Shown piece by piece: positions 45,897-56,576 of a stretch of 64,000 nt of DNA; position 1 is the stretch's first letter; every line of letters begins with the position of its first letter. The notes under the pieces are model-generated. The model had not been told where the DNA came from. It saw nothing but the letters and a program-made list of their open reading frames with translations, and did not search any database. Source of the stretch: Crocinitomix algicola (GTDB lineage Bacteria; Bacteroidota; Bacteroidia; Flavobacteriales_D; Crocinitomicaceae); NCBI RefSeq assembly GCF_001661595.2, contig NZ_LYPF02000014.1, forward strand, positions 62,001 through 126,000, given 5' to 3'. Made by a program: the position numbers and the translations under genes.

Positions 45897-45925
45897 GGTT
45901 ACCTTTTAAAATTCGGTACCACTAA
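45897..45925 (+). promoter_or_regulatory. possible second-sigma (ECF) promoter of the barrel gene
   Basis: GGTTACC (45897-45903), then 14 bp, then ACCACTAA (45918-45925). The -35 part is identical, and the spacing equal, to the ECF promoters at 52746-52774 and 52930-52958; the -10 part matches CGCATTAA in 5 of 8 positions. It lies 19 bp before the ATG. Confidence 0.35.
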
Positions 45926-45944: not shown

Positions 45945-46565
45945 ATGAAATTCTTAAAAAAATCACTTTTGGTAATATGTTTGGCTGGTTCCTTTATACA
46001 GGGACGTGCTCAAGGACAGGCGTCCATTGCGGAAGGCGATCTTTTAATTAATCCGTCCATTACGCTTGGATGGTATAATTATGGGCATTCTTGGGATGTA
46101 ATAAATATACTACCGCCTGTAGCATTAAACTTCGAGTATGCGGCATCAAACTTATTTAGTTTTGGTTTTGAAGGTGAGTATGCTCGACGAACCTATAAAC
46201 ACCTTTATTACTTTTATGATACCGATCAATATAAATACACTTACAAATCATTCATGGTAAGAGGTTCTTTTCATTATTTAGATGTTATAAAGAATATTTT
46301 TGGTGATGATTTGGGTGATTTCAATTCGGAAAAACTTGATTTTTATATTGGAGCATCAACGGGAATGGTAATTACGAATGTTTTAACCACTTGGACGGAT
46401 CCATTGACGGAAAAAGTTCGTGAGAAAAAGGATTTTGATTCAACCTGGAGATTCGGATACTTTGCTGGTTTTAGATACTATTTTAATAATAGTGTTGGGG
46501 CTTTTGCAGAGACAGGACGAAATAGTCTAGGTTGGATGAAATTAGGTTTAACCTTAAAGATTTAA
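45945..46565 (+). CDS. outer membrane beta-barrel protein
   Basis: A 206-residue protein with a signal peptide (cleavage near residue 21, GRAQG). The mature part has alternating hydrophobic and polar residues typical of an eight-stranded barrel, and ends with the aromatic strand LGWMKLGLTLKI. Strands include VALNFEYAAS, FGFEGEYARR and FGYFAGFRYYF. It is probably a small outer-membrane protein, with no known partner. The promoter region contains a possible ECF-type element. Confidence 0.8.
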   Translation: MKFLKKSLLVICLAGSFIQGRAQGQASIAEGDLLINPSITLGWYNYGHSWDVINILPPVALNFEYAASNLFSFGFEGEYARRTYKHLYYFYDTDQYKYTYKSFMVRGSFHYLDVIKNIFGDDLGDFNSEKLDFYIGASTGMVITNVLTTWTDPLTEKVREKKDFDSTWRFGYFAGFRYYFNNSVGAFAETGRNSLGWMKLGLTLKI

Positions 46566-48958: not shown

Positions 48959-51502
48959 ATGGTCAGGTTAAATATTGTATTTCTTTTTGGGTTCTTCTGT
49001 TTGTTTCACTCAAACGTTTTTGGCAATCCGATTATTGATTCGTTAACAAATCGCCTCGGAACGATTGAACAAGAAAATTCAGAAACTTTTATTCGTGAAA
49101 AAGCGAAGTTGTCAAGTGAAATTGCCGATTGGTACAATAAGGTTTATGTAAATCAGGATTTTACTCGAACATATTTGTTAAAGTCTACGACTTACATGAA
49201 GGCTTTGGAATCCAGTTACAAACTTTTGCCCAGTGATATTTTATTTTTGTCCGATGTTTATCGGCGGTTAGCTTTGTATGAATTGCAACTAGGAAACGTC
49301 CAAGAGTCAGACCGATATATGCGAGAATGTGAACGATTGTTGATCAGTTCTAAATCTGTCGTACCAAAAAATCAGTTTGACAAGTCGCTTTACGATTTTT
49401 ATTTATCTTATTTCGCAATGAATTTTAGGATGGGCAAGCTTTCGGAAGCGCTTTTATCAGTAAATAACGCTGAAAAAGTAATGCGCAGTAATGTCAACCT
49501 TAAAAGTGAAGAAATAAATCTTTTCAGTCAAAAAGCAATACTCATGGCTCAAATGGGGGATGTTAATGGGTCGATGGAGTTTGCAAAAAAATCGTTGGAT
49601 ATTTATGAAAACAACCCAATTCCAGGCTTGCCTCATGATCGTTTCATTTACTTTTATTTAAGAACCTTTTTCCAAGCCGGTCAATACAAAGAGTATTTAC
49701 ATGTTTTATCGAAATATCCGCAGTACAAAAACTACTTGGCTATGGAGACTTACTTAGATAATCACGAAGATATGGTAACAAGGACTTTTTTCGAGAATGT
49801 CTTTATGGGAGGAATTTCTTATTTCCAATGTTATAAAAACACAAAAAATATTGCTTATCTCGATTCTGCTTACCAGCAATATGTTAATGGTTTTAGATTG
49901 GGCGAAAAGTTAACGGTAAAGAATGATGGAGATAAAATTGGAGGGACTATTCTACGACCAGATAATAAAATAAACTCGCTCTTAACAACGGTTAACGAGT
50001 TGGATAATATTAATGGTAAAGTTGGACAACAAAAGATTTCAGAAGTAATTAGAATAATTGATGCTTACCAATCCAATCGATTGCACTTGGAACGAATCTC
50101 TTACCAATTAAATGCTGATTTATGGGTGAAAGAAAAAGAGTTGAAGAATGAAATTAGCTATCTAAATAATAAAATTAGCGAATTAGATACCGTACCTAAT
50201 TCAAAAGGGATAATAGATTCACTCAGTCAAATCATTCAAGAAAACACTAAGAAAGCCACAGCGTTAAAGGCAAAGACCAAGCGGGATTTGGTGATGGAGC
50301 AGTATAAATTATCACAAAATGATTTCGAATTACGATTGAATGATTATCTCGCCAAAAATAAAAAAACGCTATTGGTATACTTTTTTAACCCATTGGACTC
50401 TACAATACACACCATGGGTCATGCGGGCAACCATGCTTTTTTTAATTCAGTTAAAGTAGCGAATAATTTTTTGGGTATGATTGATTCAGCATATACCTTA
50501 AATGCTTCTTTACAAACAGATGTAATTGCTATCGAAAAACAGCATAAGCTCAATCGAGAATTATATTCGCTGCTTATAGACCCGATTGTTGATCAAATAA
50601 AAACAGAGGAATTAATCATTTATCCAATTGATGAGTTTAGCTATATTAGTTTTGATGCCTTACTTAATCCACAAGATGAATATTTAATTGAGAATTATAG
50701 TATTCAATACACCAGTTCATTATTTTCAATTATCCATGCTAGAAAACAATCCGATTATGTAAGAGATTTGGCCGTTTTTAACCCAGAAAATTATGGAACA
50801 GACTCGTTGGCAAAATTAGTGCATGCACGACAAGAGTCTATTGACTTAGCTAAGCGTTTTGATGGTCTCTTAATAGAAAAACAATTGGCAACGAAATCGG
50901 CTTTTCTTGCGAATACAGAGGTGAATAAAATAGTTCATTTAGCCACGCATTCAATTTTGAATTTTGAGCATCCGTATGAGTCTTATATTGTTTTTGACGC
51001 AACAGAAGACCTTGATTCAAATCACTTATATGCTTATGAGATTTTTGCGAAAAATATAACTGCGGAAATGGTTGTGTTAAGTTCATGTAATTCGGCCAGA
51101 GGAGAATTAAAAGAAGGAGTAGGAGTATTAAGTCTATCAAATGCGTTTTATTTTGCTGGGGTTCCGTCAACGGTGAGTAGCCTATGGAGTGCTCAAGATC
51201 AAAGTGCGGCAGATGTTATGCGTGCTTTTTATTCTAATTTACAGGAGGGAGAAACTAAATCGAAAAGTTTGCAAAAAGCTAAAGTCAAGTATTTATCAGC
51301 AGCAGATAAAATTCACAGGCAGCCATTTTTTTGGGCAAATTATGTTGTTTATGGTGACGATCAAAAGTTATTTGAAAAGTCCATTTTCAGTGCATCATTG
51401 AAAAAATGGCTAGTTGTTACAGGGGGAGTTGTTCTAATTTTACTAATTGTGGTTTTGGGCAGACGAGTTTATCGCAAATCATCAATTAATTCAGCGGCTT
51501 GA
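48959..51502 (+). CDS. membrane-anchored CHAT (caspase-like) protein
   Basis: An 847-residue protein: signal peptide (1-22), helical TPR-like region (about 60-330), coiled region (about 370-470) and a C-terminal CHAT domain (about 545-805). The CHAT domain has a His-Cys dyad: His664 in HLATHS and Cys710 in VVLSSCNSARGEL, followed by GVGVLSLSNAFYFAGVPSTV, typical of the family. A membrane segment (about 815-835) and a basic tail RRVYRKS follow. The enzyme domain should face the periplasm. CHAT proteins include separase-like and caspase-like peptidases. Its last 34 bp overlap the tail of the anti-sigma gene on the other strand. Confidence 0.9.
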   Translation: MVRLNIVFLFGFFCLFHSNVFGNPIIDSLTNRLGTIEQENSETFIREKAKLSSEIADWYNKVYVNQDFTRTYLLKSTTYMKALESSYKLLPSDILFLSDVYRRLALYELQLGNVQESDRYMRECERLLISSKSVVPKNQFDKSLYDFYLSYFAMNFRMGKLSEALLSVNNAEKVMRSNVNLKSEEINLFSQKAILMAQMGDVNGSMEFAKKSLDIYENNPIPGLPHDRFIYFYLRTFFQAGQYKEYLHVLSKYPQYKNYLAMETYLDNHEDMVTRTFFENVFMGGISYFQCYKNTKNIAYLDSAYQQYVNGFRLGEKLTVKNDGDKIGGTILRPDNKINSLLTTVNELDNINGKVGQQKISEVIRIIDAYQSNRLHLERISYQLNADLWVKEKELKNEISYLNNKISELDTVPNSKGIIDSLSQIIQENTKKATALKAKTKRDLVMEQYKLSQNDFELRLNDYLAKNKKTLLVYFFNPLDSTIHTMGHAGNHAFFNSVKVANNFLGMIDSAYTLNASLQTDVIAIEKQHKLNRELYSLLIDPIVDQIKTEELIIYPIDEFSYISFDALLNPQDEYLIENYSIQYTSSLFSIIHARKQSDYVRDLAVFNPENYGTDSLAKLVHARQESIDLAKRFDGLLIEKQLATKSAFLANTEVNKIVHLATHSILNFEHPYESYIVFDATEDLDSNHLYAYEIFAKNITAEMVVLSSCNSARGELKEGVGVLSLSNAFYFAGVPSTVSSLWSAQDQSAADVMRAFYSNLQEGETKSKSLQKAKVKYLSAADKIHRQPFFWANYVVYGDDQKLFEKSIFSASLKKWLVVTGGVVLILLIVVLGRRVYRKSSINSAA

Positions 51503-52188
51503 GACTTAAAATCACCTTTCACCGAATTTAACATTTCTATTGCTTGATCGTTTTTATCCATGCCGATATAGGCTAAGCCAAGGTGAAATCGAATAATTTC
51601 ATCAAATAGAGAGTTTTTCTGCGTTAATAAAAGTTCATATTTTTCAGCAGCTTCTTTGTAATTTTTAAGGGCTAAGTGAGATTCTGCAGCATAAAAAAGT
51701 GCACTCAAATTGTTGGGATGTTTTTCAAGTTGTTCAATAGCTTTTGAATACTCTTGTAAATCATAGAAATGTAATCCCATATCAATGTCTGCTTGTTCTC
51801 CCCTGACCGTAATGATATTATCATAAGGTTGAAAATTGTCTGCCACTAATGATTCTTTATCCGAGGCATTAAAAAAGAAAGTTGAACTGATTAAAGCTAT
51901 AATTGCAACAGCAGCGACTGCACTGATAATTCGAAGACGAATAACTTTTGGTCTATTACTGTTTGGTTGATGGACTATTGAATTGTCCCATGTTTTAAGT
52001 TGCTTTTGAAAAGACTTTATTTCAGCATATTCAATAGCTTTTTCAAATGTTTTAAATTCGTCAAACTCTTTTTTAAAATGCGGTGTTGTGCTAAGTTTTT
52101 TTTCAAAAGCAAGTTTTTCTAGATCAGTCATCTCATTTCTGAGATAAGCATCAAAAAGCGCAATATTTTCTTCACTAAAATTCATCAT
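51469..52188 (-). CDS. putative anti-sigma factor with periplasmic TPRs
   Basis: A 239-residue single-pass membrane protein. The N-terminal part (about 1-65) resembles an anti-sigma domain (DAYLRNEMTDLEKLAFEKKL, as in RskA-type proteins). Residues 86-106 form a membrane segment, and the rest (about 130-235) carries TPRs (MGLHFYDLQEYSKAIEQLEK, FHLGLAYIGMDKNDQAIEML). It starts in the stop of the sigma gene (ATGA). This position and topology fit a factor that holds sigma at the membrane and senses something outside. The sensing role is inferred. Confidence 0.82.
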   Translation of the reverse strand: MMNFSEENIALFDAYLRNEMTDLEKLAFEKKLSTTPHFKKEFDEFKTFEKAIEYAEIKSFQKQLKTWDNSIVHQPNSNRPKVIRLRIISAVAAVAIIALISSTFFFNASDKESLVADNFQPYDNIITVRGEQADIDMGLHFYDLQEYSKAIEQLEKHPNNLSALFYAAESHLALKNYKEAAEKYELLLTQKNSLFDEIIRFHLGLAYIGMDKNDQAIEMLNSVKGDFKSQAAELIDDLR

Positions 52189-52745
52189 CTATTCATTAAT
52201 TCACGCAACTTAGCAAGACAGAGGTATTTCTTTTTTTTGGCGCTAGCATCATTTTTATATCCGGTTTTAATGGCAATAGCCTCCATGCTATTTCGTTCCC
52301 AATAAAATAATTTAATGATGGTTTTACAAGGTTCCCCAATTTCCTCAAGCGCTTGAATTAGTTTATCAGATGTTGCTTCGTCTATTGCACTCTTTTCAAA
52401 TACTTCTGAAAAAAGTGATACGTTTTCTAAATCTGTATTTTCATTCAAGGAATCCATTTCTTTTTGAGGACTTTTATCTCGCCACCATTCTCGGATAATC
52501 ATCTTACCAATTCCATATAAATACGTTTCTAGACTTGCTTCTAAGTCAACAAGTTTGTCTTTTTTTATATTGAAGAATAAAACGGTAAAGCTTCTCTGGT
52601 ATATTTCACTGCAATCTTCTGCATTTGAAATTTTGTACCTTCCTCGAATCCAATTTTCGAATTTTGGTTTAAATTCTTTATAAATCCGTTGAACAACTCG
52701 TTCGTCTTGATTTTTAATTGATGCTATCGTTGTATTCTTATCCAC
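52185..52745 (-). CDS. ECF-type RNA polymerase sigma factor
   Basis: A 186-residue sigma-70 family protein. Region 2 (about 15-85) has NAEDCSEIYQRSFTVLFFNI and TYLYGIGKMIIREWWRD; region 4 (about 125-175) has EEIGEPCKTIIKLFYWERNSMEAIAIKTGYKN (key words LFYWERNSMEAIA). The only standard start is GTG at 52743-52745, which directly follows the CGCATTAA -10 element, so the message may be leaderless. It overlaps the anti-sigma gene by 4 bp. Its promoter is identical to that of the divergent lipoprotein gene, which indicates autoregulation. Confidence 0.9.
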   Translation of the reverse strand: MDKNTTIASIKNQDERVVQRIYKEFKPKFENWIRGRYKISNAEDCSEIYQRSFTVLFFNIKKDKLVDLEASLETYLYGIGKMIIREWWRDKSPQKEMDSLNENTDLENVSLFSEVFEKSAIDEATSDKLIQALEEIGEPCKTIIKLFYWERNSMEAIAIKTGYKNDASAKKKKYLCLAKLRELMNR

Positions 52746-52774
52746 TTAATGCGCTCAAAAATAATAAGGTAACC
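52746..52774 (-). promoter_or_regulatory. ECF promoter of the sigma operon
   Basis: Minus strand: GGTTACC (52774-52768), 14-bp spacer, CGCATTAA (52753-52746). The same 15 bases with the same spacing appear on the plus strand at 52930-52958. A further CGCATTAA lies at 52783-52776, just upstream of the -35. The -10 abuts the GTG start. Confidence 0.75.
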
Positions 52775-52929
52775 GTTAATGCGAATTCTTTTCAAAAATA
52801 AAAAAGTTTACGTGTAATTCACGTATTTTTTTGGGTTTAGACCTGTTGGTAAATTGATGTTTATTCAGGTTTTTTCGTAATGCTCAACTAATCAATAAAC
52901 TAAGGGATAAATATTTTTTTTTTAAAGTT

Positions 52930-52958
52930 GGTTACCTCTTTTTTTCTAGACGCATTAA
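52930..52958 (+). promoter_or_regulatory. ECF promoter of the lipoprotein gene
   Basis: GGTTACC (52930-52936), 14-bp spacer, CGCATTAA (52951-52958), 16 bp before the ATG at 52975. It is an exact copy, in sequence and spacing, of the promoter of the divergent sigma operon. Confidence 0.75.
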
Positions 52959-52974
52959 AGGGAAATCAAAAAAA

Positions 52975-54249
52975 ATGAGAAAAATGAAAATTTCAATTCA
53001 AAAAAATAATTTACTAATTGCCGTTTTAGGTGCTGGTATGCTATTTACAGCCTGTAAAAAAGAAGGTTGTACTGATCCAACAGCAACAAACTACAATAAA
53101 AAAGCGAATCAAGATGATGGATCATGCAAGTATGATAATAATCCAGATGGACCAGTTGTAACGACAGAATGGACTGAGGATATAACAGCTAATACGACTT
53201 GGGCACCGGGTGTAATAAATGTTTGTGGTGACATTCGAATTGAGGCAGCACTTACCATTCAGCCAGGTACCATTTTAAATATGTGTGCTGGAGCTTCAAT
53301 ATCGGTTAGAGAAACGGGTTCTATTACGGCTATTGGAACATCAACTTCGCCAATTGTATTTAAAGGGGATGTTGCTTCACCTGGTTTCTGGGAAGGAATT
53401 GCGGTAACTTCCAATAATCCGAATAATAAATTTGATTATGTAACAGTTTCTGATGCAGGATCTTATTGGGGATGGGAATATGCAAATGTTTTCGTTGATA
53501 ATTTGGCTAAGTTATCGTTAAAGAATTCAACTATTTCGAATAGTGAAGGCCCGGGGTTATACGCTCATGCCAGCGCTACATTTACGGAATTTTCGAACAA
53601 TACATTTAGTAATTGTGCTGAATCTGGTTTAAGTGTTTCGGCGACACAAGTTAAGTATTTGGATAATGCTTCAAATTATACTGTTTCCAACGGAACCGAT
53701 CAAATACATGTTAGAGGTGCGGTGATGACTAGTGCAGCAACTTGGGCTGTTAAATCATCTCCAATATTGATCGATGGTAATGTCGATGTAGATGCGGCAC
53801 TTACAATTAACCCTGGTGTACACATCATGGTGGAGTCCGAAGGGGAATTTCAAGTAAGAGAATCCGGGTCTTTAACGGCTGAAGGAACGGCAGGTGAGCC
53901 AATTATATTTGAGGGTAGGTTCGAATCTGCTGCATATTGGAAGGGTATTAATATTGGATCTAATAATCCAAATAACAGATTTGATTATGTAACTGTTTCA
54001 GATGGAGGGTCTTATTGGGGTTGGTATTATGCTGGAATTAACGTTTCAAGCGGACGGTTAGAACTTGATAACTGTACCGTAAATAACTCAAATAGCTATG
54101 GCGTTTATATTAACGGATCTTCAACTATTTATTCAGGAGGTGCTGTTCAGTCTGATGCTGCTGGAGTAAATACTTACAATACAATTACTGGAAACGGTGT
54201 TGGACCAGATGCCGATTGTGTGGATGGTTGTACTGTATATTTTGATTAA
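52975..54249 (+). CDS. beta-helix lipoprotein, probable ECF sigma target
   Basis: A 424-residue lipoprotein with lipobox LFTAC (Cys27). A short Cys-rich module, GCTDPTATNYN then QDDGSCKY, follows; it is frequent in Bacteroidota surface proteins. The rest is a right-handed parallel beta-helix. It contains an internal duplication: the NNPNNKFDYVTVSDAGSYWG region (about residues 147-166) recurs as NNPNNRFDYVTVSDGGSYWG (about 327-346). The family is not recognised; such helices often bind or cleave polysaccharides, but no catalytic set is visible. An in-frame ATG three codons later is an alternative start. Confidence 0.82.
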   Translation: MRKMKISIQKNNLLIAVLGAGMLFTACKKEGCTDPTATNYNKKANQDDGSCKYDNNPDGPVVTTEWTEDITANTTWAPGVINVCGDIRIEAALTIQPGTILNMCAGASISVRETGSITAIGTSTSPIVFKGDVASPGFWEGIAVTSNNPNNKFDYVTVSDAGSYWGWEYANVFVDNLAKLSLKNSTISNSEGPGLYAHASATFTEFSNNTFSNCAESGLSVSATQVKYLDNASNYTVSNGTDQIHVRGAVMTSAATWAVKSSPILIDGNVDVDAALTINPGVHIMVESEGEFQVRESGSLTAEGTAGEPIIFEGRFESAAYWKGINIGSNNPNNRFDYVTVSDGGSYWGWYYAGINVSSGRLELDNCTVNNSNSYGVYINGSSTIYSGGAVQSDAAGVNTYNTITGNGVGPDADCVDGCTVYFD

Positions 54250-54324
54250 AAATTAAAGAGTAGTCGCATCAAGTTTAACCGACCAATTCTTATTTATGAT
54301 TTGGTGCGATGATTTGTGGATGGA

Positions 54325-54352
54325 GGGACCTTTCGAGGTCCCTTTTCTTTTT
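54325..54352 (+). terminator. intrinsic terminator after the lipoprotein gene
   Basis: GGGACCT (54325-54331) and AGGTCCC (54336-54342) form a perfect stem with a stable TTCG tetraloop, followed by TTTTCTTTTTT. Confidence 0.92.
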
Positions 54353-54354
54353 TG

Positions 54355-54362
54355 TACATTTG
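54355..54362 (+). promoter_or_regulatory. putative -7 box for the phosphatase gene
   Basis: TACATTTG, a full consensus match and identical to the rplM -7 box, lies 45 bp before the ATG at 54408. Confidence 0.45.
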
Positions 54363-54407
54363 CAAAAAAATATAACCCGTGATGGGTTTTTTCGTATTAA
54401 AAAGTCA

Positions 54408-56576
54408 ATGCGTTATATCTTAATTTTATTTGTCACAGTTTTTATAGGACTGACTGGGTGGGGGAACGATAACTTTGTCATAGAGTTAACAGACGAGGGG
54501 TTAAGTCGTTCTCAAGGTGAATTTTGTGGTTATTTTAAAGATGATCAAAAGCAAATTAATACACTGCATGAAGCAAAATCGGTTCAATTTATTCCGACAG
54601 AAAGTGCTATACCAGATTTTAACTTCACAACAGCGCGTTATTGGATCAAGTTTGACTTAAGGAACAAGACGAGTTTTGATGATTTTATTTTGGAAACTGG
54701 ACGCCCTGTGACGAATAATGTGGAGTGTTTTGTTTTGAAAAATGATAAGGTTTTACATCACTATCAATCAGGGGACGATTATTCTTATTACGCGAAAGAA
54801 ATTGAACATCGAAAAAACCTCTTTCCAATTGCGTTAGACTCCAGTGAATCGGTCACCATTTATTTAAAATTCGAAAGTGATGGCGAATTGTTGTTCACTC
54901 CAATTATATTCCATGATCACATGGGGTTTTTTGCGCAAGATTTTAAAGAACAATTCAAGAATGGTTTTTATTTTGGATTGATTTCTTTGGTCGTAATTAT
55001 TTATTTCTTCTTTTTTGTTTTTCTCCGAGATCAATCATTTTTGTTCTACATTCTTTATGCTTTTTCGCAAGGAGTGTTGCAGTTTTCTTTAGATGGATTT
55101 ACTCACCACCATTTCTTTCCGAATGGGGGATATTTAACCAATCATGTCTTGCTAGTATTTGCAGGATTTACGGTGATTTTTCTACTGACTTACGTCGATC
55201 ATTTTTTACAGTTGAAAACGAGAAATAAAAAGCTGTATAAAATCTTTCTCTATTCGCGTATTGTTATGGGCGCTATTATAATCATGTCCTTAATACCAGG
55301 AACTCCCTATCAACTTGCATTTCCGATCATTAATGGAGCAAGTCTTTTTGCCGTGTTATTGGGGGCGTTTTCCATTATTTACCTCAGGTTTAAAGGTTTT
55401 AGGGTGGATATTTTCTTTTCAATTGCATTCATCATTCTAATAATAGGTGGAGTAGTGTTTATTCTTGGAAATATGAGTATTGTTGGTGATAAAATAATCT
55501 CACTTGGTGCGTTAAAATTAAGTTCAGCTTTTGAGTTTGTCATTTTGAGTATATCAATGTCTAACAAGTATGGTAAATTACAACGAGAGAAAAGGTCGGC
55601 TCAAGAAATTGCCCTTAAAAATTTAAGGGAACGTAATGAAGCGATTGACATATTGAATGTTGGTTTAGAAAAGCAGGTCAAAGAACGGACAAAGCAGTTG
55701 GAAGTTCAAAAAGAAGAACTTAGAAAAAGTACGAAAGAAATATTTAGCAGTATAAAGTATGCTGAGCGAATTCAAAACGCCATTTTACCCTCAGAGGAGC
55801 AAATAGCAGAAATTCTTCCAAATTCATATATTTTTTATCGTCCAAAAGATGTAGTTAGTGGTGATTTTTATTTTGTTGAATCGGTGAGAACATCTTATGA
55901 ATCTTCAGAGGAGTTTACCGTATTTGCGGCTGTTGATTGTACAGGACATGGAGTTCCGGGGGCATTTATGAGTATTGTTGGTCATAATTTGCTGATGCAA
56001 AGTTTAAAAGTTGCTACAGTAAATTCTCCTGGTGAAGCATTGGATTATTTAAATTCAGGTGTAGAACGAACATTAAGAAGTCAACGAGAAGGTTTTATTG
56101 TTCGAGATGGTATGGATATCGCAATGTGCGCATTAAGTTCGGATCGGAAAAAAATAATGTTTTCTGGTGCGCGAAACTCCTTGTATTTGATTCGAAAAAA
56201 ACATTTGGTTGATCAAACTAAAATGCTTGAAAATATGACGGTTTGGGAAAGTTCGGATACAGCGAGTCTTATAGAAGTAAAAGCGATTAAGCGATCCATT
56301 GGTAATGCAACTGAAAAAGATGATTTTCACTTTGAAAACTATAATTTAGATGTATTTGAAGGTGACCAGCTAATCTTGTTTTCAGATGGCTTTCCAGATC
56401 AGTTCGGTGGACCGAAAATTAAAAAATATTCCTATAAGAGGTTTAGAGAGACATTGCTTGATTTGTACGATTTACCGTTAGATAAACAGCAAAAGGAATT
56501 AGAAGGAAAGTTTATGAGTTGGCAGGGGAGCCAAAGTCAAACAGATGATGTGCTGGTAATTAGTGTGAAAATTTAA
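54408..56576 (+). CDS. 7TMR-DISM sensor with SpoIIE-type PP2C phosphatase domain
   Basis: A 722-residue sensor. The ATG at 54408 starts a signal peptide (RYILILFVTVFIGLTGWG); an in-frame start further upstream would lie inside the terminator of the previous gene. The order is an extracellular 7TMR-DISMED2 domain (about 25-180), seven membrane segments (about 190-400), a coiled coil (about 405-460) and a PP2C/SpoIIE domain (about 480-722). The phosphatase metal Asp residues are seen in VDCTGHGVPGAF, LFSDGFPDQFGG and QTDDVLV. Such proteins dephosphorylate anti-anti-sigma partners. It ends 4 bp inside the convergent gene. Confidence 0.92.
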   Translation: MRYILILFVTVFIGLTGWGNDNFVIELTDEGLSRSQGEFCGYFKDDQKQINTLHEAKSVQFIPTESAIPDFNFTTARYWIKFDLRNKTSFDDFILETGRPVTNNVECFVLKNDKVLHHYQSGDDYSYYAKEIEHRKNLFPIALDSSESVTIYLKFESDGELLFTPIIFHDHMGFFAQDFKEQFKNGFYFGLISLVVIIYFFFFVFLRDQSFLFYILYAFSQGVLQFSLDGFTHHHFFPNGGYLTNHVLLVFAGFTVIFLLTYVDHFLQLKTRNKKLYKIFLYSRIVMGAIIIMSLIPGTPYQLAFPIINGASLFAVLLGAFSIIYLRFKGFRVDIFFSIAFIILIIGGVVFILGNMSIVGDKIISLGALKLSSAFEFVILSISMSNKYGKLQREKRSAQEIALKNLRERNEAIDILNVGLEKQVKERTKQLEVQKEELRKSTKEIFSSIKYAERIQNAILPSEEQIAEILPNSYIFYRPKDVVSGDFYFVESVRTSYESSEEFTVFAAVDCTGHGVPGAFMSIVGHNLLMQSLKVATVNSPGEALDYLNSGVERTLRSQREGFIVRDGMDIAMCALSSDRKKIMFSGARNSLYLIRKKHLVDQTKMLENMTVWESSDTASLIEVKAIKRSIGNATEKDDFHFENYNLDVFEGDQLILFSDGFPDQFGGPKIKKYSYKRFRETLLDLYDLPLDKQQKELEGKFMSWQGSQSQTDDVLVISVKI

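Follow-up and report, generated by a model that had tools for sequence, protein, structure and literature searches.

A 64,000-nucleotide stretch of the Crocinitomix algicola genome (contig NZ_LYPF02000014.1, positions 62,001 to 126,000 of the forward strand; hereafter the window) contains a locus that probably encodes a three-part envelope system, in which CHAT-dependent cleavage of an anti-sigma factor after its residue R129 would activate an extracytoplasmic function (ECF) sigma factor. The gene of the TPR-CHAT protease (847 aa) is located at 48959-51502 on the plus strand, followed on the minus strand by the genes of the TPR anti-sigma factor (239 aa; 51469-52188) and the ECF sigma factor (186 aa; 52185-52745, GTG start). 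A beta-helix lipoprotein gene (424 aa; 52975-54249, plus strand; PF13229, E 1.7e-8) is a predicted target of the sigma factor. The original prediction, made from the DNA letters alone, had these four genes at the same positions. The CHAT and anti-sigma genes are convergent and their 3' ends overlap by 34 bp (51469-51502), a feature missing from that prediction; the 4-bp overlap it gave for the sigma and anti-sigma genes is found if the first of two ATG codons is used, and shrinks to 1 bp with the second. The genome of the window (G000) has one CHAT match. The sigma factor, which is kept beside the anti-sigma factor, has the ECF model TIGR02937 as its best match (40.5 bits, E 2e-10, just under the NCBIfam cut-off of 42.9) and no Pfam match at E values up to 0.05; going by these matches, it is a divergent relative of the TIGR02937 ECF type.

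The CHAT protein consists of an N-terminal signal sequence, a helical TPR region (about residues 24-466), the CHAT region and a C-terminal membrane helix (812-846). The CHAT domain (PF12770) was found at residues 531-800 with 173.7 bits against a gathering cut-off of 24 (E 7.5e-51), and the AlphaFold2 (AF2) model of the protein has a mean predicted local distance difference test score (pLDDT) of 85.6. The catalytic residues His664 (codon 50948-50950, plus strand) and Cys710 (51086-51088, plus strand), correctly numbered and paired as a dyad in the original prediction, are invariant in all 123 CHATs paired with an anti-sigma factor, that of the window included. The protein is thus a predicted cysteine protease with an intact His/Cys dyad. 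Its N-terminus is hydrophobic and signal-like by inspection, and basic residues follow the C-terminal membrane helix. Among the paired CHATs, a signal-like N-terminus is present in 116 of 122 and a C-terminal transmembrane (TM) segment, by simple hydropathy, in 109 of 122, with more K/R after than before this segment in 97 of the 109. Topology was judged from hydropathy and charge counts, not from SignalP or TMHMM. By these counts, the CHAT domain and the TPRs of the anti-sigma factor would both face the periplasm, each protein being tethered to the inner membrane, in agreement with the periplasmic CHAT domain that had been predicted from the signal peptide and C-terminal anchor.

The anti-sigma factor has TPR matches, and its AF2 model (mean pLDDT 87.1) consists of helices at residues 6-72, predicted to be cytoplasmic, one TM helix at 88-107 (51868-51927, minus strand; also visible in the hydropathy profile) followed by a short helix, an unstructured segment at 119-132, and TPR helices from residue 133, which would be periplasmic. 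K/R residues are richer before the TM segment than after it in 121 of 123 anti-sigma factors, as expected for the single membrane segment and periplasmic TPRs already proposed in the original prediction. This layout would suit regulated proteolysis: a single-pass, N-in anti-sigma factor is encoded after the sigma gene, and the two genes overlap. Foldseek with the anti-sigma model returned mostly TPR, designed or other helical proteins and no anti-sigma factor among the 50 matches listed.

The anti-sigma factors diverge strongly but keep a short segment after the membrane helix, usually R followed by a small residue (G, S, N). In an alignment of the window's protein with 40 of 58 candidate sequences, R129 is invariant (41/41) at 14-38% identity to the window, and the only other invariant residue is the start Met. 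R129 falls within 119-132, where the model has no regular structure, ahead of the first TPR helix. The residue after it is usually small (G, S, N or A; D or others in some rows), and the distance from the end of the TM segment to this position has a median of 27 positions (range 18-102, a hydropathy estimate). Some lineages have Met or Lys in place of the linker Arg. The codons of R129-G130 (51799-51804, minus strand) mark the predicted scissile bond in the periplasmic linker, on the grounds of conservation, the linker in the model, and covariation. A cut inside the TPR domain, as originally predicted, was rejected, as the conserved and covarying residue sits before the TPRs.

The three genes are linked far beyond this genus. 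Among 99 genomes (that of the window included), CHAT matches were found in 40, sigma matches in 58 and anti-sigma matches in 44. The trio occurs together in the layout of the window in five of eight same-genus genomes (G001, G003, G005, G007, G008); of the other three, G002 has CHAT and lipoprotein genes without the sigma pair, G004 has a weak CHAT match elsewhere only, and G006 has no CHAT match. In other families of the order, where regions were picked for closeness of matches, the trio is present with different layouts and flanks. In a phylum set of 296 genomes, a CHAT gene lies no more than about 8 kb away in 46 of 60 loci selected by their anti-sigma factor; the 60 come from the best 62 non-own anti-sigma matches (G160:C61:173349 and G274:C5:189462 were left out), and the profile was built from CHAT-linked examples, so that this set is not an unbiased one. 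A further 80 named loci were picked by a pattern at the CHAT His motif, derived from an alignment of seven linked CHATs, with flanks of up to 6 kb. Both sigma and anti-sigma genes were within the fetched stretch in 60 of these 80; 56 of the 60 trios are convergent, 42 of them with at most 45 bp between the genes. The remaining loci have neither gene (16), only the anti-sigma gene (3) or only the sigma gene (1), some of them near contig ends. Adjacency in Bacteroidota genomes, which the original prediction had named as a check on itself, is thus conserved in both sets. Carriers of the trio include Zobellia uliginosa, Maribacter polysiphoniae, Aquimarina brevivitae, Pedobacter yonginense and Rudanella paleaurantiibacter, as well as one Terriglobia metagenome-assembled genome (L224). 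The 65 order and phylum loci, counted with the doubtful L080 and L107, comprise 25 convergent, 23 divergent, 13 downstream co-directional and 4 upstream co-directional arrangements. Linkage that survives this many rearrangements would be hard to explain without a shared function.

Among 29 loci taken by CHAT score from other families (L238-L266), sigma and anti-sigma genes occur together in three (L248, L250, L260); in L250 and L260 the anti-sigma matches are all weak or long, and neither locus entered the pair counts. A C-terminal TM segment was found by the same rule in three of the 29 (L243, L259, L265). L227-L237 and L248 encode anti-sigma factors of a more distant type, about 250-290 aa long, with a linker that is mostly R-S, R-A, R-N or R-G (R-E in L237), and the CHATs near them have no C-terminal membrane helix except in L236. 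Seven further neighbor pairs from deeper loci combine a linker R followed by S, A, N or G (by eye) with E626 in the CHAT, again without a C-terminal TM segment except in L236. Two same-genus loci (L063 in G003, L064 in G005) have a tandem pair of CHAT genes beside a single sigma/anti-sigma pair. In G002 (L080:9445-12263) the sigma and anti-sigma genes are missing, and the CHAT frame stops before the conserved PFFWANY segment and continues directly, in a different frame, into a lipoprotein gene that lacks its N-terminal part; this looks like a deletion or a misassembly (the genome is 84% complete, in about 400 contigs).

Residue-level covariation between the linker residue, the predicted P1, and the predicted S1 pocket of the CHAT domain points to a direct protease-substrate relation. 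In a first ranking by normalized mutual information (NMI), with 60 of 64 pairs, columns 626, 708 and 747 lead 337 CHAT columns for association with the P1 residue. In the full ranking (123 pairs, 112 after removal of near-copies; 228 x 328 usable columns), the column pairs 129x626, 129x747 and 129x708 rank first, second and third of 74,784 inter-protein pairs, both by NMI and by NMI with average product correction (APC). Inspection by eye had already pointed to column 708; 626 and 747 emerged from the first ranking. L080 (doubtful anti-sigma factor, truncated CHAT), L107 (split CHAT) and L219 (CHAT below 500 aa) were dropped before the 123-pair counts; L106, L127, L131 and L133, whose P1 was unclear in the first alignment, were also absent from the 60-pair ranking and were restored for the 123 pairs. 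The anti-sigma alignments that gave the P1 letters were made without the CHAT sequences.

In the 123 pairs, E626 accompanies P1 Arg in 106 of 106 cases, P1 Met in none of 14 and P1 Lys in one of three, the other two having D708. Column 708 is S, G or A with Arg, T or N in 10 and S in four of the 14 Met pairs, and D in two of the three Lys pairs. Column 747, counted over the 60 pairs, is D in 46 of 46 Arg-type rows, D or E in 11 of 11 Met-type rows and E in three of three Lys-type rows; one further Met-type row (L131) has N. The P1 specificity of clan CD proteases rests solely on alpha1 (or L1), L4 and L5 according to the available text of PMC4357240, with Asp365, Asp462 and Glu500 of MALT1 as examples. 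In our CHAT model, residue 626 lies in helix 623-633 after strand 602-608, and 747 in a loop before helix 748-762. We read E626 (codon 50834-50836), the predicted S1-pocket acid, as part of alpha1, S708 (51080-51082), two residues before Cys710, as part of loop L4, and D747 (51197-51199) as part of loop L5 (all plus strand), so that the model would have the three columns in the regions that set P1 specificity. The direction of the covariation fits the chemistry, with an acid opposite a basic P1.

As a control, the maximum NMI-APC is 0.303 for sigma x CHAT against 0.571 for anti-sigma x CHAT. The corresponding MI-APC maxima (plain mutual information) are 0.427 for sigma x CHAT, 0.555 for anti-sigma x CHAT and 0.611 for sigma x anti-sigma, the last of which may be expected for binding partners. 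In a forward test, 345 genomes of the class were searched with a Lys-type and a Met-type CHAT, which matched 5 and 16 genomes, respectively (E up to 1e-60), and 20 regions were taken, three of them around other CHAT matches from the phylum search. Of the 15 fresh pairs of a CHAT and a plausible anti-sigma factor, 14 fit the P1/S1 rule: 11 with P1 Met and no E626, one with Lys (V626, D708) and two with Arg and E626. Five fresh regions have no pair; four of their CHATs have E626, and the fifth (L280) has Thr and lies beside a sigma match, with no anti-sigma gene found. On the best CHAT tree, non-Arg P1 residues are distributed over four distinct clades (support 59, 100, 97 and 99), and E626 is lost in each of them except in the Lys row L077.

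Several observations weigh against this interpretation. Both locus sets were obtained with queries built from linked examples. On a CHAT tree built without columns 626, 708 and 747, the P1 state changes about five times, and phylogenetically independent pairs number only one (starred branches) to three; the independent-pairs test was set aside, as there are too few changes for significance. Plain MI-APC puts only 129x626 first, with 708 and 747 at ranks 34 and 43. Three P1 letters changed between alignments (L106 from H to M, L127 from Q to R, L131 from K to M) in the direction that favors the P1/S1 reading, and if the P1 of L131 is Lys, this row, with no acid at 626 or 708, breaks the rule. 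Most of the fresh loci were selected for their similarity to Lys- or Met-type CHATs, 10 of the 11 Met rows come from one genus, and one fresh pair (L284) does not fit, having a linker without Arg though its CHAT has E626. E626 occurs in every one of the 41 CHATs from the deeper loci, most of which are not sigma-linked, and may have a general role; because of this presence it is probably ancestral in CHATs. Finally, three of six anti-sigma loci in genomes without a listed CHAT match still have the R-G motif, and such loci were set aside as a negative control for this mixed outcome.

With these points taken into account, the CHAT protein is most likely the site-1 protease of its neighbor, with the R129-G130 bond as its putative target. 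In the proposed mechanism, the TPR-CHAT cysteine protease would be exported and held in the inner membrane by its C-terminal helix, with the TPR sensor and the CHAT domain in the periplasm, while the single-pass anti-sigma factor would bind the ECF sigma factor in the cytoplasm and expose its short linker and TPRs in the periplasm. An envelope signal would activate TPR-CHAT, which would then cut after R129, about 22 residues outside the membrane, and this site-1 cleavage would remove the TPR ectodomain. A site-2 protease, for example the M50 protein of the genome (G000:C4:197743-198987, E 4.1e-49; M50 matches are also present in 14 of 14 control genomes), would probably finish the anti-sigma factor and free the sigma factor. 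The freed sigma factor would transcribe its own operon and the genes of the beta-helix lipoprotein, a 206-aa exported protein and a SprB-repeat protein of the type IX secretion system (T9SS) type. We infer the cleavage, its direction (cleavage meaning activation), the site-2 step and the trigger. The originally predicted non-CRISPR CHAT protease that acts on the anti-sigma factor in the envelope gains from the adjacency, the invariant dyad, the lack of a RAMP match and the covariation between linker and S1 pocket; its cut site moves from the TPRs to the linker.

An alternative that we consider unlikely takes the linker Arg as a pseudosubstrate: the anti-sigma ectodomain would fill the S1 pocket and keep CHAT inactive, the CHAT substrates would be other envelope proteins, and the sigma system would sense or control the protease, not the reverse. 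The covariation between S1 and P1 would look identical in this case, and inhibitory Arg loops in clan CD S1 pockets are known, such as Arg126 of the RgpB prodomain in the accessible part of PMC4357240. However, according to the same text this inhibitory Arg is itself cleaved, R129 is usually followed by a small residue, as a cut site would be, and the best-studied TPR-CHAT beside a sigma inhibitor cleaves that inhibitor, as far as the available part of PMC10028731 describes it.

Very unlikely, in our view, is a linkage that reflects a shared stress module only, with CHAT cutting something else and the residue coupling due to shared ancestry. The few independent P1 changes, the presence of E626 in CHATs in general and the many gene orientations would agree with it. 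Yet the predicted promoter of the sigma factor, a lineage-specific element, is upstream of none of 120 CHAT genes; ancestry should lift many column pairs, whereas sigma x CHAT reaches only the 0.303 given above; and the three top CHAT columns against position 129 all fall in S1 regions. A relic of a CRISPR-derived Craspase, or an abortive-infection device with CHAT as its death effector, is hardly conceivable: Csx29 is the top structural match and CHAT domains are found in conflict systems (PMC10907252, available text), but the genome has no RAMP match, positions 40000-64000 have no close direct repeats, PADLOC gives no match in the four locus proteins, and the topology signals are those of an exported, membrane-anchored protein.

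If CHAT-dependent cleavage after R129 is correct, many Bacteroidota ECF sigma factors would gain a named activating protease and a named bond, with predictions at the level of single residues (R129, C710, E626, S708). It is possible, though we put it forward tentatively, that separase-like, TPR-sensing, tethered CHATs form a widespread class of site-1 proteases, each of them dedicated and matched to one particular anti-sigma factor, with parallel channels insulated from each other. The matching may follow a P1/S1 code, proposed here with the same reserve, of Arg with E626, Met without an acid at 626, and Lys with D708. Different types do occur together in one genome: G322 has a Met-type pair (L082) and two Arg-type pairs (L099, L112), G388 a Met-type (L083) and an Arg-type pair (L134), and G180 a Lys-type pair (L135) and four Arg-type pairs (L096, L098, L103, L105). 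Such a code would insulate paralogous channels within one cell, in which case these paralogues would be a natural set of orthogonal protease/substrate pairs. With cleavage after R129 by CHAT, whether or not the code holds, the CRISPR Csx29-Csx30 arrangement would have a common non-CRISPR counterpart in the envelope, linked to the one-chain DdvA.

The predicted targets come from a promoter-like element. The motif GGTTACC-N15-GCATTAA has only two perfect copies, in the window as in the whole 3.7-Mb genome, and none in 100 shuffles of the window. One copy (52746-52774, minus strand) is the predicted sigma-dependent promoter of the sigma/anti-sigma operon and recurs at the same place with 0-1 mismatch in L062-L064 and L068; the other (52930-52958, plus strand) precedes the lipoprotein gene and recurs with two mismatches before the same gene in L062, L063, L065 and L066. 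L064 likewise has it in the corresponding position, on a contig that stops short of the lipoprotein gene. Instead of the single promoter that the original prediction had the sigma and lipoprotein genes share, the intergenic region thus holds two back-to-back copies of the same element. The -10-like box abuts the annotated GTG of the sigma gene (52740-52774), as it does in L062-L065, suggesting either an unusually leaderless sigma mRNA or a true start further in.

A refined pattern, GGTNACCT-N15-CAYTAA, has four perfect sites in the genome, before the sigma gene, the lipoprotein gene, a 206-aa gene (45945) and a 672-aa gene on contig C7; because the pattern was adjusted with the sites already in view, finding four of them does not amount to an independent test. 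The 206-aa exported protein, encoded by an open reading frame at 45945-46565 (plus strand), has no Pfam match, and its outer-membrane assignment is by inspection only; its predicted sigma-dependent promoter (45897-45925, plus strand) ends 20 bp upstream, and L062, L063 and L064 have the element, at 1-2 mismatches, ahead of their own version of this gene. The fourth predicted target (G000:C7:94241-96259) is a 672-aa secreted protein with a SprB repeat and a Por secretion tail (T9SS-type). Looser matches (at most one mismatch) were rejected, as the real pattern gave 8 and a backward control 13, and only perfect matches were retained. Transcription by the sigma factor of its own operon and of the lipoprotein, 206-aa and SprB-repeat genes is a set of predictions from these sites. 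The lipoprotein, originally predicted as the induced gene, keeps a perfect predicted promoter, but three other targets are predicted as well, and among the 20 order loci compared the lipoprotein has matches in same-genus loci only. It has an internal duplication with two similar halves, NNPNNKFDYVTVSDAGSYWGWEYA and NNPNNRFDYVTVSDGGSYWGWYYA.

The element is lineage-specific, because its strict matches are nearly confined to the genus: it is upstream of six of 134 sigma genes (five same-genus, with L065 and L146 being the same locus counted twice, and L068 from another family), and it also precedes 10 of the remaining 1037 genes of these loci, nine of them in same-genus loci. A general Bacteroidota promoter was rejected on these counts. 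A feedback loop with CHAT as a sigma target was also rejected, the element being absent upstream of the CHAT gene of the window and of 120 homologous CHAT genes (0/120). In operon-type loci, CHAT follows the sigma and anti-sigma genes, so that co-transcription is expected. In two loci from another family of the order (L068:9234-9262, L067:10226-10254), the same promoter-like element is directed away from the sigma gene, and the next gene on its strand encodes 611-616 aa, in L068 a TPR sensor histidine kinase. Downstream of the lipoprotein gene of the window, a 7TMR-DISM/SpoIIE-type phosphatase gene (54309-56576) is a possible functional neighbor, and a multi-TM gene of similar size follows the lipoprotein gene in the same-genus loci L062, L063, L065, L066 and L080.

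Among known structures, the CHAT model is most similar to Csx29 (Foldseek E 3.3e-16 to 8eey_B; VIA Z up to 30.6), followed by separase (5fby, Z 26.5), DdvA (8rot/8rw5, Z 22.7-23.4) and gingipain R (1cvr, Z 18.2). A PDB search with the full-length profile was dominated by TPRs, and the 60 matches listed out of 157 include no CHAT protease; it was set aside for a CHAT-only profile. In type III-E CRISPR, the TPR-CHAT protease Csx29 cleaves Csx30, the inhibitor of CASP-sigma, and in one Csx29 system the substrate is cut at residues 427-429 and deletion of M427 prevents cutting (PMC10028731, available part). With the CHAT-only profile, Craspase TPR-CHAT sequences (8d9h, 8d9f and others) align a gap, G and S, with no acid, to columns 626, 708 and 747. 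These sequences presumably come from a different orthologue than the one with the mapped site. Because 626 falls in a gap and we take the orthologue to be another one, the Met site without an acid may lend the P1/S1 rule weak support. The system described here resembles Csx29/Csx30/CASP-sigma in its TPR-CHAT protease, proposed to act on the inhibitor of an ECF-type sigma factor, with the same overall fold (Z 30.6) and a His/Cys dyad. Unlike Csx29, which is part of an RNA-guided complex (PMC10028731), the protease appears to be exported and membrane-anchored, and the inhibitor is a single-pass TPR anti-sigma factor, whereas Csx30 is not described as a membrane protein in the available part of that paper. 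Unlike in the Craspase TPR-CHAT, P1 is Arg in most partners, together with E626 in the protease. The system is not a Craspase, because the genome (99.94% complete) has no match to PF03787 (RAMP, the criterion for Cas7-11; control matches in 4 of 14 genomes) and positions 40000-64000 of the window have no direct repeats of at least 22 bp within 120 bp of each other (the criterion for a CRISPR array); PADLOC has no match among the four locus proteins.

DdvA, the anti-sigma factor of DdvS in Myxococcus xanthus (PMC4374960, available part), is a 991-residue anti-sigma chain with a TPR-CHAT-like region. The PDB entries 8rot and 8rw5 carry the molecule name 'CHAT domain-containing protein', and we infer from the name that they are M. 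xanthus DdvA. Residues 25-799 of our model match residues 388-991 of that chain, and the LATH and LAAC motifs align with the CHAT of the window; the superposition covers 542-547 residues at a root-mean-square deviation of about 13.5, so that the domain arrangement differs. Unlike in the one-chain DdvA, the anti-sigma factor and TPR-CHAT are encoded here by two convergent genes, and the anti-sigma factor has a short TPR domain of its own. By this analogy, DdvA would tie anti-sigma and TPR-CHAT functions together independently. No paper on the CHAT function of DdvA, and none on a two-gene CHAT/anti-sigma system in Bacteroidota, was among the literature matches listed (titles and starts of abstracts; the ECF re-classification was not covered). 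ECF54 sigma genes, which have no anti-sigma factor, have CHAT, subtilase or carboxypeptidase genes nearby (review PMC8999054, available part). The present system shares with ECF54 a CHAT gene near an ECF sigma gene and a proposed proteolytic control, and differs in that an anti-sigma factor is part of the unit. The original prediction's claim that the circuit is undescribed thus stands for the two-gene form in Bacteroidota among the matches listed, but the one-chain DdvA and CHAT genes near ECF54 were already known.

Separase and RgpB, both of clan CD, have Arg as P1 (PMC4357240, available part). The proposed protease is similar to separase and gingipain R in its fold and in a predicted basic P1. 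We know of no sigma-factor role for either of them.

In the DegS-RseA and RsiW systems, a single-pass anti-sigma factor undergoes a site-1 cut and then further proteolysis. Regulated anti-sigma proteolysis of this type is summarized in PMC10028731 (available part). The system of the window resembles it in its single-pass anti-sigma factor, in the proposed site-1 cut followed by further proteolysis, and in an M50 protease encoded in the genome. The difference lies in the site-1 protease: here this would be a separase-like cysteine protease of the CHAT type that has a TPR region and whose gene is next to that of its substrate.

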